Source of the DNA: Kitasatospora azatica KCTC 9699 | GTDB lineage: Bacteria > Actinomycetota > Actinomycetes > Streptomycetales > Streptomycetaceae | Assembly: GCF_000744785.1 (NCBI RefSeq) | Contig: NZ_JQMO01000003.1 | Location: 3,782,001-3,846,000 of the forward strand | Length of the DNA: 64,000 bases | Reading direction: 5' to 3' | Shown here: piece by piece, positions 49,673 through 55,343 of the stretch | Layout: the number at the start of each line of letters is the position of its first letter | How positions within the stretch are numbered: position 1 is the first letter of the stretch | Position numbers and translations under genes: made by a program | Notes under the pieces: generated by a model | Database searches by the model: none | What the model was told of the DNA's origin: nothing | The model's input: only the letters and a program-made list of their open reading frames with translations

Positions 49673-50242
49673 ATGACTGCGGCCTCCTCCCACACCGGCC
49701 GCCTGCTCGTGGCGACCCCCGTCCTCACCGACCCCAACTTCGCGCGGTCGGTGGTGCTGCTGCTCGACCACGACGCGCAGGGCGCGCTCGGCGTGGTGCT
49801 CAACCGGCCGACCCCGGTGGAGGTCTCGGACGTACTGGACGGCTGGGCCGAGCTGACCGGGGACCCCCGGGTGGTCTTCCAGGGCGGTCCGGTGGGCCTG
49901 GACTCGGCGCTGGCGGTCGCGGTGGTGCCCGGCGAGCCGGGCCCCGAGGACCCGCTGGGCTGGCGGCGGGTGCACGGCGCGATCGGCCTGGTCGACCTGG
50001 AGGCGCCGCCGCAGGTCCTGGCCGGCGAACTGGGCGCGCTGCGGGTCTTCGCCGGGTACGCGGGTTGGACGCCGGGCCAGCTGGAGAAGGAGGTCGCCGA
50101 GGGCGCCTGGTACCTGGTGGACGCCGAGCCCGGCGACATCTCCTGCCAGCGGCCCGAGCTGCTGTGGCGCTCGGTGCTGCGCCGCCAGCGCGGGGCGCTG
50201 GCGATGCTGGCCACCTATCCCGAGGACCCGACGCTCAACTAG
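49673..50242 (+). CDS. YqgE/AlgH family protein (UPF0301)
   Basis: A 189-residue protein starting MTAASSHTGRLLVATPVLTDPNF, with family signatures SVVLLLDHDAQGALGVVLNRP, here two blocks (SVVLLLDHD and GALGVVLNRPT), and RVFAGYAGWTPGQLE. The function of the family is not settled. ATG 49673 is the first start consistent with family alignment. Its last 8 bases overlap the convergent hydrolase gene at 50235. Confidence 0.93.
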   Translation: MTAASSHTGRLLVATPVLTDPNFARSVVLLLDHDAQGALGVVLNRPTPVEVSDVLDGWAELTGDPRVVFQGGPVGLDSALAVAVVPGEPGPEDPLGWRRVHGAIGLVDLEAPPQVLAGELGALRVFAGYAGWTPGQLEKEVAEGAWYLVDAEPGDISCQRPELLWRSVLRRQRGALAMLATYPEDPTLN

Positions 50243-51059
50243 GGCCGGTCAGCTGAGTGCGCTGCGAGGGCACCGGGCGGCGGCCGGCCGCGGTCAGGGT
50301 GGCCAGCACGGTCGGCCAGACCGCGGCGAGCGGGTCGATCAGGTGGAAGTGGTCCGTCCCGGCGGACTCGAGCAGGGTCACCGGGTCCCCGGCGGCCGTG
50401 GCCCGCCGGGCGTACTCGCGGCTCATCGCCACCGGCACCTGGCGGTCCTCGGTGCCGTGCAGCAGGGTGACCGGGACCCCCAGCGGCAGCAGCGCGGCCG
50501 GGTCGGCCAGTGCGTACCGCTGCGGGACCTGCCCGGGGCCGCCGCCGAGCAGCCCGAGCACCGCGTCCTCGCCGAGCCCCCAGTCCGCGCACAGGTCCAG
50601 GCAGCTGCAGCCGGCCAGCACGACCACCGCGTCCGGCACCCGCCGGGTGGACCAGGGCGAGTCGGCCGGCAGCCGGCGCCGCGCGGCCGCCCAGAGCGCG
50701 AGGTGGCCGCCGGCCGAGTGGCCGACCAGCACGGTCCGTCCGGTCACCGGGTGGGGCAGCGGTCCGGCCAGCAGGTCGAGCGCGGCCGCCACGTCGTCGA
50801 AGGTGTCCGGCCAGCCCGAGCGCCGGTACTCGGGGACGGCGACCAGGTGGCCGGCCTCGGCCAGCGCGCTCGCCAGCGGGCCGGTGTGACTGCGGTCGTA
50901 CTCGGGCTGCCAGAAGCCGCCGTGCAGCAGCACCAGCAGCGGGGCCGGTCCGAGGCCCGGCGGCAGGCGCAGGTCGACCACCTGGTCCGGGTGCTCGCCG
51001 TAGCGCAGTGTGTGGTCCACCGGCGGGGCCGGCCGGGTCAGTACTTCGCGGCTGTCCAT
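50235..51059 (-). CDS. Alpha/beta hydrolase, kynurenine formamidase-like
   Basis: A 274-residue alpha/beta hydrolase. The oxyanion motif HGGFW near residue 46-50 is typical of arylformamidases, and the nucleophile is in VGHSAGGHLALW. Asp in LLHGTEDRQVP and His in GTDHFHLID complete the likely triad. The gene directly follows tryptophan 2,3-dioxygenase, so hydrolysis of N-formylkynurenine to kynurenine and formate is the best inference. ATG 51059 has GAGGAGG. It is the last gene of the five-gene operon, and its end overlaps yqgE by 8 bases. Confidence 0.82.
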   Translation of the reverse strand: MDSREVLTRPAPPVDHTLRYGEHPDQVVDLRLPPGLGPAPLLVLLHGGFWQPEYDRSHTGPLASALAEAGHLVAVPEYRRSGWPDTFDDVAAALDLLAGPLPHPVTGRTVLVGHSAGGHLALWAAARRRLPADSPWSTRRVPDAVVVLAGCSCLDLCADWGLGEDAVLGLLGGGPGQVPQRYALADPAALLPLGVPVTLLHGTEDRQVPVAMSREYARRATAAGDPVTLLESAGTDHFHLIDPLAAVWPTVLATLTAAGRRPVPSQRTQLTGPS

Positions 51060-51075
51060 GCGTGGGCCTCCTCGG

Positions 51076-51849
51076 TCACAGTTCGCTGCGGAACTCCCAC
51101 AGCTCCGGGTAGAGGCGCTCGCGGGCCCGGGCGGCCAGGTAGCCGGCGCCCGTGCTGCCGCCGGTCCCGGGGCGGCGGCCGATCTGCCGCTCCACCACCA
51201 GCACGTGCCGGGCCCGCCAGAGCGACCAGGCCTGGTCGTGGTCGAGCAGCGCCTCGGCCAGCTCGGCCACCGACTGGTGGGCGGGGGTGCGGACCACCTC
51301 GGCCAGCGCGGCCCGGCGCTGATCCGGTGTCAGCACGCCGTACCCCGCCTCGGCGAGCACCGAGACGAAGGCGTCCCAGACGGTCGGCTCGATCAGCCGC
51401 CGCTCCAGCCGGTCGCGCTCGGCCCCGGTGAGCCAGTCCAGGTGGGCGAGCCGGTCGCCCGAGGCGGGGCCGGAGAGCAGTTCGACCTCGTGGAACTGCG
51501 CGGACTGGGCGCCGCTCGCGCTGCCCAGCGCGCCGCGGAAGGCCAGGAAGTCCAGTGGTGCCATGGTGTCCAGCAGCTCGATGGTGCCCAGCAGGGCCCG
51601 CTCGATCTCCCGGCAGCGGCGCAGCGCGAGCCGGGCCGCCGGCAGCCGGCCGGTCAGCATCCGGTCGCGGGCGGCGCCGAGCTCGCGCAGCAGCAGTCTG
51701 AACCAGAGCTCGTGCACCTGGTGCACGGTGATGAACAGCTCCTCCTCGGTGCCCTGGTGGTCGCCGCGCGGTGTCTGGAGGGTGAGCAGCTGGTCCAGAT
51801 TGAGGTAGCCGCCGTAGGTGAGCGTGCTGGTGCTCAGGGGTGTGGTCAT
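51076..51849 (-). CDS. Tryptophan 2,3-dioxygenase
   Basis: A 257-residue haem dioxygenase that opens tryptophan to N-formylkynurenine. The distal region has TVHQVHELWFRLLL with His43 in the place of the distal His. The substrate and haem region is RHVLVVERQIGRRPGTGGSTG, given as two blocks: RHVLVVERQIG and RRPGTGGSTGAGYL. ATG 51849 overlaps the stop of the diiron oxygenase gene (ATGA). In ordinary catabolism a kynureninase or monooxygenase would be nearby; none is present here, which points away from a standard anthranilate pathway. Confidence 0.93.
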   Translation of the reverse strand: MTTPLSTSTLTYGGYLNLDQLLTLQTPRGDHQGTEEELFITVHQVHELWFRLLLRELGAARDRMLTGRLPAARLALRRCREIERALLGTIELLDTMAPLDFLAFRGALGSASGAQSAQFHEVELLSGPASGDRLAHLDWLTGAERDRLERRLIEPTVWDAFVSVLAEAGYGVLTPDQRRAALAEVVRTPAHQSVAELAEALLDHDQAWSLWRARHVLVVERQIGRRPGTGGSTGAGYLAARARERLYPELWEFRSEL

Positions 51850-52787
51850 GGTCCGCCGTCCACTTCGTAGAGGCCGCGGGAGGCGAAGGCCTCCCGGACA
51901 CCGGGCAGGTCGAACGCTCCGACCGAGGCGCACAGGCGCAGCGTCGATCGGGAGATCTCCGAGATCCGGTCCGCGCCCGCGGTCGGGGCGTAGCAGTCCG
52001 CCAGTACGTCGCGGGCCGCGGCGGTGTCCAGGCCGGCCAGCCGCAGCGAGTCCTCGACCGGGGCCAGGTCCCAGCTGAGCGCGGCATGGATCAGCTCGGG
52101 CAGGGCGAGCGCGGCGCGCCGCCGCAGCTCGGGGGTGAGGCCGGCCCAGAGCTCGTGGAAGAAGGTGGCGAAGAAGCGGTGATGGCGGCCCTCGTCCTTG
52201 GCGTGGTCGCGCATCAGGTCGCGGACCGGGCGGACCACGGTGGCGTCGGTGGGCAGTTCGTTGAGGACGGCCGTGATCAGCGTCTCGAAGACCACGGCCT
52301 GCAGCAGCCCGGCCAGCTGCGGCTGGTCCGGGAGCAGTCGCCGGGCGGCCGCGGCGAGCTGCTCGACGAATCCGCCGTAGTCCCAGTCGGGGATCGCGAT
52401 GCCGGTGACGCCGGCGATCTGGTCGGCCAGGTCGAGGCTGTACAGCGCGTGGTAGCCCTCGTCGCAGTAGACCTTGAAGGCGTCCTGGCGCAGCGCCGCG
52501 GTCAGCGCCAGCGGGGTGCGGCCGTTGGCGATCGGCTCGGCCGCGCGGTTCACCACCCGGGTCTCCAGGTGGGTGGTGGCCAGCAGGAACTGGTAGAGGT
52601 GACGGACCGTCAGTTCGCGGCGTCGCTCCGGGTCGAGCGCGCGCACCGCCTCGTGGCCCAGGTGCGGGACCAGCGCCTCGGGGAAGAAGACCAGGCCTTG
52701 CTCGGCGCCCTCGTGGAACATCCGGCGGACCCCGGTGCGCACGCCAGCGCTCTCGTACCAGCGGTCCAGCGGTCCGGCGGCGCTCAT
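51846..52787 (-). CDS. AurF-family diiron N-oxygenase
   Basis: A 313-residue helical protein of the p-aminobenzoate N-oxygenase (AurF) family. All seven diiron ligands can be placed: Glu75, Glu110, His113, Glu168, His195, Glu199 and His202. Their spacing closely follows AurF (35, 3, 55, 27, 4, 3 residues). Known members oxidise aryl or heteroaryl amines to hydroxylamine, nitroso or nitro groups. The neighbours make kynurenine, whose aromatic amine is an attractive substrate; that is inference. ATG 52787 is the last of four ATGA starts in a reiterated junction, with GGAG six bases upstream. Confidence 0.88.
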   Translation of the reverse strand: MSAAGPLDRWYESAGVRTGVRRMFHEGAEQGLVFFPEALVPHLGHEAVRALDPERRRELTVRHLYQFLLATTHLETRVVNRAAEPIANGRTPLALTAALRQDAFKVYCDEGYHALYSLDLADQIAGVTGIAIPDWDYGGFVEQLAAAARRLLPDQPQLAGLLQAVVFETLITAVLNELPTDATVVRPVRDLMRDHAKDEGRHHRFFATFFHELWAGLTPELRRRAALALPELIHAALSWDLAPVEDSLRLAGLDTAAARDVLADCYAPTAGADRISEISRSTLRLCASVGAFDLPGVREAFASRGLYEVDGGP

Positions 52788-52849
52788 CGGTGACTCCAGC
52801 TCATCGGTGACCCTCGTTCATCGGTGACCCCAGCTCATCGGTGGCTCCA
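52784..52849 (-). repeat. Chain of three ATGA-coupled 6-codon mini reading frames (17-bp repeats)
   Basis: Between the PLP-enzyme stop and the oxygenase start a 17-bp unit is repeated. Each copy has a purine-rich Shine-Dalgarno (GGAG, GGGG or GAGGG), six bases, then ATGA. The copies encode MSWGHR (52838-52818), MNEGHR (52821-52801) and MSWSHR (52804-52784), each stop overlapping the next ATG by ATGA. The first unit derives from the end of the PLP-enzyme gene (EWSHR-stop), the last gives the true oxygenase start. Confidence 0.9.
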
Positions 52850-54082
52850 TTCGAGCGGTGCGGCGGCGGGCTGCGCGGGCAGCGTGCCTAGCCGGGCCAC
52901 CGCCTCGGCCACCACGGAGGCGTCCAGTGGGTGGCAGAGCCGGAACCAGCCGGGCTCGGGGGAGTGGAAGGCCTCGCCGGGCAGGATGTTGACCCGCAGC
53001 CGGTCGGCGATGGTCCGCCAGAGCTGCCGCTCGCCGACGAAGCCCGGCTCGGGCAGCCGGTCGCGCAGGTCGATCCAGAGCGAGCAGCCCGCCTCGGCCG
53101 GTACGTGCCCGATGCCGTGCCGGGCGAGCTGCTCGACGGTGGCGGCGCAGGAGGCGGCCAGCCGACGGCGGTTCTCGGCCAGGAAGCCGGCCGTCCGGTC
53201 GGGGTCGGCGAGCAGTTGGGTCAGCACCGCCTGGGTGCCGGTGGAGACCGGGGCGAAGTAGGCCAGCGCCCGGGCGGCGGCCCGCACCTCGGGGTCGGTG
53301 GTGTGCAGCACCCCGGCCTTGAAGCCGGGCAGGCCGAAGTCCTTGGCGAAGCCCCAGACGGTGTGTACCCGCGGGCTGCCGAGCGTCTCCAGGGCGGTGA
53401 ACGGGCGCGGCCCGAAGACCGAGTGGGCGTAGATCTGGTCGCCGATCAGGTCGACCCCGTACTCCTCGGCGAGCCGGGCCAGCTCGTGCAGGTGCTCGGC
53501 CGGGTAGACCTGGCCGAGTGGGTTGGCCGGTGAGGCGAGTGCGATCGCGCGGACCGTGGCGCCGGTCCGGCGGGCCAGGCAGAGGGCGCGTTCGACCGGT
53601 GCGAGGTCGAGCGCGAAGCCGTTCGCGCTGCTGAGCGGTGCCGGGATCAGCCGGGCGCCGGACCGGCCGCCGAGGTCGGTGTCGAAGGCGCCGTAGTAGG
53701 GGGCGGGCAGCACGATGGCCTCGCCCGGGTCGCAGAGCGCGCTGGCGATCACGTCCAGTGCGGCGGTCGCGCCGCTGACCAGCACCAGGTTCTCGGGGTC
53801 GACCGGCGAGCGGTAGCAGGCGGTGAGCAGCTGGGCGATCCGCTCGCGCAGCAGCGGTGTGCCGTGCAGCGGGGCGTACCGGGTGTCCGGCTCGCTGAAC
53901 GGGGGCAGTTCGGCGGCGAGCCGGTCCAGCAGGTCGCCGAGCAGGCGGTTCTCCGCGGTGCCGAGGTTGAGGTATCCGTCGGGGCGGCTGACCGGGTGGT
54001 AGGGGAAGGCCTCGGCCCGGAAGTGCGCCTCGGCGATGGCGGGGGTGGCGGCGGTCAGGGCCGCGGCCGTGCGGGAGACCAT
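52835..54082 (-). CDS. PLP-dependent aminotransferase-fold enzyme, ACC-synthase-like
   Basis: A 415-residue fold-type I PLP enzyme. The internal aldimine Lys247 lies in GFAKDFGLPGFKAG, close to the SKDxGLPGFRxG of ACC synthases, with Lys in place of the phosphate-binding Arg. SPANPLG, DQIYAHSVF and the C-terminal EPGWFRLCHPLD (substrate-carboxylate Arg) and the N-terminal LNLGTAENRL also resemble that group. It may act as a kynurenine aminotransferase or perform another alpha- or gamma-reaction. ATG 54082 has AGGAG seven bases upstream. Its stop is the first of the reiterated ATGA junctions. Confidence 0.86.
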   Translation of the reverse strand: MVSRTAAALTAATPAIAEAHFRAEAFPYHPVSRPDGYLNLGTAENRLLGDLLDRLAAELPPFSEPDTRYAPLHGTPLLRERIAQLLTACYRSPVDPENLVLVSGATAALDVIASALCDPGEAIVLPAPYYGAFDTDLGGRSGARLIPAPLSSANGFALDLAPVERALCLARRTGATVRAIALASPANPLGQVYPAEHLHELARLAEEYGVDLIGDQIYAHSVFGPRPFTALETLGSPRVHTVWGFAKDFGLPGFKAGVLHTTDPEVRAAARALAYFAPVSTGTQAVLTQLLADPDRTAGFLAENRRRLAASCAATVEQLARHGIGHVPAEAGCSLWIDLRDRLPEPGFVGERQLWRTIADRLRVNILPGEAFHSPEPGWFRLCHPLDASVVAEAVARLGTLPAQPAAAPLEWSHR

Positions 54083-54104
54083 CTCAGTGCTCCTGAGGGT
54101 GTGT

Positions 54105-54896
54105 TCAGTGCTCGTGGCCGGTGAGCAGGCCGGGGTGGACGCCCAGGCCCATCGAGGCGTCGATCACCGCGCCGTGCAGCAGGCCGGAGGCCGGGCCGGC
54201 CAGCCACCAGATCAGTTCGGCCACCTCCGCCGGCTCGATCAGCCGGCCCTGTGGCAGGCGTTTGAGCAGTTCGGCGCGGTTCTCGGGGGTGAGCGGGTCG
54301 AGCGTGCTGGCTTCGAACATGCCGGTGTCCACGGCGCCCGGGCAGATCGCGAAGACGTGGACCGATTGGTGCACCAGCTCGGCGGCGAGCTGGCGGGTGA
54401 GGTGGCAGAGCGCGGCCTTGCTCATGCCGTCGGCCAGCCGGAAGCCGGGGAACTGGGACACCCCGCCGCCGACGCTGGAAACGTTGATGATCTTGCCGCC
54501 GCCCTGGCGGATCAGCTGGGGCAGCAGTGCGCGGCTCAGCCAGAGCGGACCGAGCGCGTTGATCCGCAGCATGGCCTCGTCCTGCTCGGGTTCGTGCGGC
54601 CCGGCATAGCGGGCGACCGTGGCCGAGCCGACCGCGGCGTTGTTGACCAGGACGTGCACCGGGCCGGGCAGCTCGGCCAGCAGTCGTTCCTGGTCCGGCC
54701 AGTTCCCCTGGTCGAAGGCGAAGGCGCGGGCCGCGCCGGGGCGCTCCTGGTTGACCTCGGCGACGATCGCGGCGGCCCGCTCGGCCCCCAGCCGGTAGGT
54801 GAACCACACGTTGTCGCCGGCCCGGGCGAAGCGTTCGACGCAGGCGCGGCCGATGCCTGCCGAACCCCCCGTTATGAGGATGTTGCGTGCTGCCAT
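54105..54896 (-). CDS. Short-chain dehydrogenase/reductase lacking the usual catalytic Tyr
   Basis: A 263-residue SDR, first gene of the operon. The nucleotide loop TGGSAGIG, NNAAVG and catalytic Ser140/141 (NVSSVGGG) are present. The YxxxK motif reads DGMSK, so Asp156 replaces the Tyr while Lys160 is kept. ATG 54896 follows AAGGGG six bases upstream; a GTG at 54965 lies in the operator and is not the start. The protein may be a reductase with altered mechanism, or non-catalytic. The remaining sequence (GAVDTGMFEAS) is typical of the family. Confidence 0.88.
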   Translation of the reverse strand: MAARNILITGGSAGIGRACVERFARAGDNVWFTYRLGAERAAAIVAEVNQERPGAARAFAFDQGNWPDQERLLAELPGPVHVLVNNAAVGSATVARYAGPHEPEQDEAMLRINALGPLWLSRALLPQLIRQGGGKIINVSSVGGGVSQFPGFRLADGMSKAALCHLTRQLAAELVHQSVHVFAICPGAVDTGMFEASTLDPLTPENRAELLKRLPQGRLIEPAEVAELIWWLAGPASGLLHGAVIDASMGLGVHPGLLTGHEH

Positions 54897-54948
54897 CAGC
54901 GACCCCTTCCGGGGCGCGGCTGCCGGTGCGGCAGCGGATGAACGTGAC

Positions 54949-54965
54949 TTGACTAAAGTTGTCAA
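54949..54965. promoter_or_regulatory. Palindromic operator TTGACTAAAGTTGTCAA overlapping -35 elements
   Basis: TTGAC (54949-54953) and GTCAA (54961-54965) are perfect inverted arms with a seven-base centre, in an A/T-rich patch. The minus-strand reading starts TTGACA, a perfect -35 for the operon, with TTCATC 17 bases on as a weak -10. The plus reading starts TTGACT with TTACTG 17 bases on. A repressor binding here could control both directions. Confidence 0.6.
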
Positions 54966-55061: not shown

Positions 55062-55343
55062 ATGAGCACTCTTGAGCCCGAGCGCGGCCTCGGTACCGGC
55101 ACCCTGGTCGAGCCCGTCCCGCAGGTGTCCCACGGCGACGGCGACCACGAGCGCTTCGCGCACTATGTCCAGAAGGACAAGATCATGGAGAGCGCGCTCT
55201 CCGGCTCCCCGGTGGTCGCGCTCTGCGGCAAGGTCTGGGTGCCCGGGCGCGACCCGAAGAAGTACCCGGTCTGCCCGATGTGCAAGGAGATCTACGAGGG
55301 CATCGGCTCCGGTGGCGGCGACCAGGGTGGCGACAAGCAGTAG
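55062..55343 (+). CDS. DUF3039 domain-containing small protein
   Basis: A 93-residue protein of the actinobacterial DUF3039 family. The core HGDGDHERFAHYVQKDKIM is followed by ALCGKVWVPGRDPKKYPVCPMCKEIY, shown here as LCGKVW and YPVCPMCKEIY, whose three Cys and a nearby His could bind zinc. The C-terminus is Gly-rich. The function is unknown. It lies in the core gene order near yqgE in related genomes, which makes the five-gene operon between them look like an insertion. Confidence 0.9.
   Translation: MSTLEPERGLGTGTLVEPVPQVSHGDGDHERFAHYVQKDKIMESALSGSPVVALCGKVWVPGRDPKKYPVCPMCKEIYEGIGSGGGDQGGDKQ

Follow-up and report, generated by a model that had tools for sequence, protein, structure and literature searches.

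The window analyzed here is a stretch of 64,000 nucleotides (G000:C3:3782001-3846000) within the 8.27-Mb genome of Kitasatospora azatica KCTC 9699. Its minus strand carries five open reading frames, which encode, in this order, a short-chain dehydrogenase/reductase (SDR), a pyridoxal phosphate (PLP) enzyme resembling 1-aminocyclopropane-1-carboxylate (ACC) synthase, an AurF-type diiron oxygenase, an enzyme of the tryptophan 2,3-dioxygenase (TDO) type and an alpha/beta hydrolase (Table 1). An earlier note, made from the sequence alone, had named these five families as members of one compact minus-strand unit, and both the positions of the reading frames and the family assignments stood up to our analysis. 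Comparison with other actinobacteria indicated that the unit is a conserved mobile four-gene core (SDR, PLP, AurF, TDO), to which a formamidase-type hydrolase is attached in about half of the loci. We consider it moderately probable that this cassette makes a small N-oxygenated, kynurenine-derived compound from tryptophan.

Table 1. Genes and repeat of the cassette in the window (position 1 is the first nucleotide of the window)
Feature	Position	Strand	Size and characteristics
SDR-fold protein	54105..54896	-	263 aa, first gene of the unit; TGGSxGIG (Rossmann) and NNAA kept; Asp156 instead of catalytic Tyr
PLP enzyme, fold type I, ACC-synthase-like	52835..54082	-	415 aa; Lys247 and Arg381 kept; Leu72 at Tyr of YHG
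AurF-type ferritin-like diiron N-oxygenase	51846..52787	-	313 aa; ligands E75, E110, H113, E168, H195, E199, H202
Tryptophan 2,3-dioxygenase-type heme enzyme (TDO)	51076..51849	-	257 aa; proximal His, distal His and GTGG loop kept; QYR Arg replaced by His
Alpha/beta hydrolase, probable kynurenine formamidase	50235..51059	-	274 aa; HGGFWQ and GHSAGG motifs
17-bp tandem repeat, 3.6 copies	52782..52843	-	between PLP stop and AurF start

The earlier note had described ATGA overlaps or short gaps throughout the unit. The short gaps were confirmed, but just one ATGA overlap exists among the five genes (AurF/TDO, -4 bp), and the remaining junctions measure 22 bp (SDR/PLP), 47 bp (PLP/AurF) and 16 bp (TDO/hydrolase). 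The 47-bp gap houses the 17-bp tandem repeat, which on the minus strand forms three mini reading frames of six codons each, chained by ATGA stop-start overlaps and reaching the AurF ATG. At the same junction the orthologous locus L035 has a single 4-bp overlap. The proposed span of the unit (50235-54965) was right as to place but probably not as to its upper end, since the SDR gene most likely starts at the ATG at 54896 rather than at the TTG at 54965. The GC content of the cassette is 0.744 and that of its flanks 0.721 and 0.745. When the five genes were compared pairwise with two orthologues, the ratios of nonsynonymous to synonymous substitution rates (dN/dS) ranged between 0.22 and 0.54, values which are rough for the NG86 method on GC-rich codons. 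In an A+T-rich patch, 69 bp ahead of the SDR ATG at 54896, we observed the perfect inverted repeat TTGACAACTTTAGTCAA (TTGAC-N7-GTCAA). As a common operator this motif was dropped, because it is present in none of 24 other loci (22 inspected upstream of SDR and 2 permuted ones upstream of AurF).

An AurF-seeded search of 394 genomes of the family returned matches in 36 of them, the window's own included; in the genome searches, four to five first-look candidates were scored in most genomes. The seven best AurF matches (E <= 1e-137, the next one at 1e-103) have SDR, PLP and TDO genes beside AurF. No TDO match (E <= 1e-5) was detected in 34 stretches of about 13-20 kb around weaker AurF matches, two of which overlap. 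With the PLP enzyme as query and a threshold of E <= 1e-60, five of 394 genomes of the class matched, one of them the window's, and the other four all carry the complete core. A contig scan yielded 24 loci from Streptomyces, Kitasatospora, Allonocardiopsis, Kutzneria, Actinokineospora, Sphaerisporangium, Amycolatopsis, Catellatospora, Actinophytocola, Actinoplanes and a metagenome-assembled genome of the Thermomonosporaceae. Three of these loci (L075, L081, L085) repeat genomes already sampled (L037, L040 and L039, respectively) and were excluded from the counts.

Among the 32 distinct loci, the window's included, 28 carry all four core genes together, and this gathering is far beyond chance. 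For the four core genes, scattering in relatives, which the earlier note had listed as an outcome speaking against the unit, was not what we found. In three of the remaining four loci (L076, L079, L089), the contig stops within the unit, and the last one (L094), which has AurF and a PLP fragment only, is decayed. The gene order is SDR-PLP-AurF-TDO, except for L093 and L097, where it reads AurF-TDO-SDR-PLP; in L036, the PLP orthologue appears frameshifted. The distances of the four core proteins are strongly correlated with each other (Mantel r 0.79-0.90 over 23 loci), and for each of the six protein pairs none of 2000 permutations gave as high a value. In Amycolatopsis (locus L091, 13606-14838, minus strand, and by clustering also L092 and L098), genes for an O-methyltransferase and for a weak member of the TDO superfamily come after the cassette, the latter protein scoring 35.0 bits at PF03301 against a cut-off of 34.9 in L091, the one locus checked. 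These additional genes look like tailoring genes.

The window's unit had been described as an acquired island between yqgE and DUF3039. The gene labelled DUF3039 (55062-55343) lies divergently on the SDR side, and the gene labelled yqgE ends at 50242 on the hydrolase side, where it converges on the hydrolase gene with an 8-bp overlap. DUF3039 was detected in 70 of 70 genomes of the window's genus. We inspected the yqgE/DUF3039 site in thirty loci (the window's own, the two carriers G197 and G145, and 27 non-carriers) and in addition in G084. In all 27 non-carriers inspected the two genes are 57-123 bp apart (between aligned ends), as compared with 4,819 bp in the window, and such a clean insertion bears out the description as an island. 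The site is occupied in four carriers (window, G131, G197 and G145). G084, which belongs to the same genus, carries the cassette at another place and its yqgE/DUF3039 site is empty; therefore, the unit appears to move between lineages and then to stay. The AurF protein of G084 groups with streptomycete copies with a support of 90/88, which is below the 95/80 mark of the tool.

The TDO of the cassette passes the Pfam model PF03301 with 162 bits (cut-off 34.9). The Phe and the two Tyr of the indole site are invariant in 26 of 26 cassette TDOs, the distal His is retained in 25 of 26 and the proximal His in all 25 readable sequences, and the hydroxyl of the GTGG loop is provided by Thr (22) or Ser (3) in the 25 sequences readable there. 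The window's protein keeps both His and the Thr loop. With its heme and indole-site residues conserved, a loss of function was rejected. The host genome has a separate kynA-kynU operon (L142), so that a kynureninase is encoded outside the cassette; the earlier statement that no kynureninase is present thus holds for the operon but not for the genome. Since a second TDO was found elsewhere in all seven carrier genomes searched (and a kynureninase in six of them), the cassette TDO is probably an extra enzyme and not the catabolic one. The TDO encoded beside kynureninase in this genome (L142:9541-10371, L001:1102-1965, both minus strand) has TTQ instead of HQ, which means loss of the distal His, and also lacks the QYR Arg.

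The hydrolase was assigned to BD-FAE/Abhydrolase_3. A hydrolase gene lies directly beside the cassette in 17 of the 32 loci, at a distance of 20-482 bp (between aligned ends), and these hydrolases fall into two families that are about 30% identical to each other. As a same-strand fifth gene behind TDO it occurs in eight of the 32 loci, four with a hydrolase of the window's family (the window itself, L035, L036, L037) and four with one of the second family (L144-L147). Six of seven carrier genomes have one or two matches to the window's family; in G084, no member of this family was found at E <= 1e-8 and one match to the second family was. In G344 (S. cirratus), a homologue of the window's family (45-48% identical) follows TDO and kynureninase in third place on the same strand. 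Because this homologue completes a kynA-kynU operon, the family is likely to represent kynurenine formamidases, and the cassette would then begin with the conversion of tryptophan to kynurenine. On these grounds, the window's hydrolase is most likely a kynurenine formamidase.

Several observations weigh against this assignment. No adjacent hydrolase is present in 15 of the 32 loci. Among solved structures, the fly kynurenine formamidase (2e-7) is not the closest relative of the window's hydrolase, which matches a carboxylesterase at 4e-49, and for the second family (1e-12 with the fly enzyme) esterase/lipase entries match better. In G000, G084 and G131, no hydrolase of the window's family was found near kynA-kynU, and hydrolases 32-34% identical to the window's occur near AurF relatives that lack a TDO (L041/L054, L055). 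We still regard the predicted segment from tryptophan to kynurenine, comprising the TDO and the hydrolase steps, as well supported, and the earlier proposal of a dedicated operon, which joins this segment to an AurF-type oxygenase and includes a formamidase-type hydrolase, found support.

The PLP enzyme is a member of Aminotran_1_2 (211 bits), and its best solved relatives are plant ACC synthases (1e-66). Lys247 and Arg381 are presumably the Schiff-base Lys and the carboxylate Arg, respectively. The Tyr of the YHG motif of apple ACC synthase, which we take to be a contact of the adenine of S-adenosylmethionine, is absent; the window's enzyme has Leu72 at this position, invariant in six aligned sequences. 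Among solved structures, ACC synthases score 229 bits and kynurenine aminotransferases about 49 bits. The transamination proposed in the earlier note is therefore possible, but the closest solved relatives of the enzyme are not the kynurenine aminotransferases. The top NCBIfam model was GntC (NF041364), and the score stayed under the cut-off (144.9 of 415 bits). As described in one report (PMC10367076), GntC dehydrates and cyclizes gamma-hydroxyarginine.

The SDR scores 130 bits with adh_short, and its structure model (predicted local distance difference test, pLDDT, of 89) has a plain SDR fold with low confidence at residues 141-150. The catalytic Tyr of the YxxxK motif is missing in 25 of 25 orthologues, which carry Asp156 at this place, while Asn113, Ser141 and Lys160 are kept. 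Because of this exchange a simple ketone reduction is doubtful, and the keto reduction suggested in the earlier note is weakened. We suggest that Asp156 might act as acid for reduction of a C=N bond; a literature search on SDRs without Tyr returned nothing that settles the role of the Asp.

The AurF-type protein passes Pfam PF11583 (82.5 bits, cut-off 29.6) but fails the NCBIfam model NF045603 for the 4-aminobenzoate N-oxygenase AurF (30 of 620 bits). Its structure model has a pLDDT of 86.5, and all nine fold matches at E <= 0.001 are AurF or CmlI. The earlier note had listed seven metal ligands with AurF-like spacing, and in alignments with the corresponding stretches of AurF and CmlI these ligands and their spacing proved invariant in 28 of 28 orthologues. 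In an IQ-TREE phylogeny the cassette proteins form one clade with a support of 100/99; for some outer rows of this tree the program warned of possible long-branch joins. At residue 70, the 28 cassette proteins have Ala (7) or Ser (21), and the 35 other relatives mostly Phe (25) or Arg (4). AurF R96, which aligns with this residue, is presumably a contact of p-aminobenzoate, and a small side chain at this place is consistent with a roomier pocket. The neighbors of two further AurF relatives (L045, L048) look, by eye, similar to non-ribosomal peptide synthetase (NRPS) genes.

An aryl amine would be a plausible substrate of this oxygenase in view of the AurF/CmlI fold, the seven ligands and the amine that would be freed by the enzyme next door. 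The genomic context of the sister clade (L041-L044, L046, L047; 49-52% identity) points in another direction. There, SbnA-type and carbamoyltransferase genes adjoin the oxygenase gene, in L041-L043 together with an SbnB-type gene; the L042 copies exceed the NCBIfam SbnA and SbnB cut-offs and the other copies were assigned by clustering with them. These clusters apparently N-oxygenate an amine derived from diaminopropionate, pointing to an aliphatic substrate in the sister clade. By analogy, the cassette oxygenase might have as its substrate an aliphatic amine, the alpha-amine or some other, in an amino acid derived from tryptophan or kynurenine, forming an oxime, nitrone or nitroalkyl instead of an aryl nitroso or nitro group, and the loss of the AurF Arg at residue 70 fits this idea. 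We nevertheless judge it unlikely. The pockets of the two groups differ at residue 70, with Ala or Ser in every cassette member against Phe in most others, the PLP enzyme requires a free alpha-amine, and the formamidase-type hydrolase that would free the aryl amine adjoins the cassette in the 17 loci mentioned above. We therefore keep the aryl amine as the favored substrate, and consider its N-oxygenation by the AurF-type enzyme moderately supported.

A second set of observations against an N-oxygenated kynurenine derivative made from tryptophan concerns the TDO. The enzyme stays below the equivalog cut-off of NCBIfam TIGR03036 (191 of 390.7 bits), as does the catabolic paralogue (295 bits). 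The Arg aligned with the QYR Arg of XcTDO, which we take to be the carboxylate contact, is kept in 9 of 26 cassette TDOs and lost in 17, the window's enzyme having His; the GFQS Phe is kept in one of 26 and replaced by Ala or Gly in 21. Moreover, none of the other core proteins has diverged as far as TDO (mean identity 0.54). Because the QYR Arg and the GFQS Phe are kept in so few sequences, the substrate may be other than plain L-tryptophan and altered at the side chain. The PLP enzyme would then act ahead of TDO, which would oxidize a side-chain-modified indole, and the product would lack an intact kynurenine amino acid side chain. We think such an order of events quite improbable, since the catabolic TDO paralogue of the same genome likewise lacks the QYR Arg and since the loop hydroxyl is kept in all 25 readable sequences. 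In human TDO, the corresponding loop Thr holds the ammonium group of the substrate, according to one study (PMC5071832).

One might also think that the cassette serves a modified tryptophan breakdown, for catabolism or detoxification, and not biosynthesis. The conserved unit includes no transporter, regulator, NRPS or polyketide synthase, and in the Catellatospora locus L093 the upstream genes look, by eye, like those of an ABC system for amino-acid uptake. On the other hand, kynA with kynureninase (six of seven genomes) or a second TDO (seven of seven) is already encoded elsewhere in the hosts, and the Amycolatopsis loci add the O-methyltransferase and the further weak TDO-superfamily protein. 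In addition, we are not aware of any AurF-type oxygenase that serves catabolism in this pathway, and we rate this explanation as very unlikely. A functionless island or chance gathering was rejected, because the unit recurs in many different neighborhoods with dN/dS ratios in the range given above. A mere chance neighborhood of the genes, in favor of which we found nothing and against which the covarying protein distances and the separate clade of the AurF proteins also speak, is virtually impossible.

Our preferred reading, the formation of an N-oxygenated kynurenine derivative, can be put into a putative sequence of reactions. Acting on L-tryptophan or on a closely related derivative whose alpha-amine is free, the TDO-type enzyme would cleave the indole ring and yield an N-formylkynurenine, as suggested by its conserved active site. 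The hydrolase would strip the formyl group and expose the aryl amine, in line with the kynA-kynU linkage of its relative, and the diiron oxygenase would take this amine to the hydroxylamine, nitroso or nitro level. The PLP enzyme might activate the alpha, beta or gamma carbons of the side chain, either by transamination or by a GntC-like gamma-elimination and ring closure, and might close a ring onto the oxidized nitrogen or the side chain. For the SDR without Tyr, an NADP(H)-linked or a non-redox step is conceivable, perhaps on a C=N bond. The reactions of the PLP enzyme and of the SDR and their order are guesses, and the product and the order of the last three steps are inferred. The simplest product would be a quinoline N-oxide or an acid of the 1-hydroxy-4-quinolone type. 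More tentatively, and as less likely than not, the stand-alone four-enzyme cassette may define a new natural-product class in several actinobacterial families. Here, the ACC-synthase-like enzyme would close the N-oxygenated kynurenine by gamma-chemistry, the ring compound being a quinoline N-oxide, a 2,1-benzisoxazoline or a cyclopropane amino acid with an o-nitrophenyl group, and the Asp-dependent SDR without Tyr would carry out an unusual reaction, either on a C=N bond or without redox change.

Several known systems share parts of this gene set. The quinolobactin/thioquinolobactin (qbs) pathway of Pseudomonas converts tryptophan via the kynurenine route to an iron-chelating quinoline acid, according to one source (PMC3053476). 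The passage of tryptophan through the kynurenine route is what it has in common with the proposed pathway of the cassette. The qbs pathway proceeds via xanthurenic acid and sulfur transfer and employs neither an AurF-type oxygenase nor an ACC-synthase-like enzyme. AurF (aureothin) and CmlI (chloramphenicol) share with the cassette oxygenase the Pfam family, the fold and the seven ligands, but their identity with it is as low as 18-22% in structural alignments, the cassette proteins form their own clade and the Arg of AurF at residue 70 is lost. The partner genes of AurF, CmlI and AzoC (azoxymycin) differ from those of the cassette. The kynA-kynU operon of streptomycetes resembles the cassette in its TDO and, in G344, in a hydrolase of the same family, whereas the cassette lacks kynureninase, has a separate, more diverged TDO and adds AurF, PLP and SDR genes. 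GntC (the L-enduracididine cyclase of guanitoxin biosynthesis) and plant ACC synthase belong to the same fold-type family as the PLP enzyme, but its score is far under the GntC cut-off and it has Leu for the YHG Tyr of ACC synthase. Among the titles and abstracts listed from the open-licence literature searched, we found none describing the SDR-PLP-AurF-TDO set or its product.

With five genes in 4.7 kb, this small, conserved and mobile cassette lends itself readily to expression, and we came across no description of its product. It offers, in one testable pathway, a new clade of AurF proteins, a diverged TDO, an ACC-synthase-like enzyme and an SDR without the catalytic Tyr. The cassette would link kynurenine metabolism to N-oxygenation, a connection that we did not find described.

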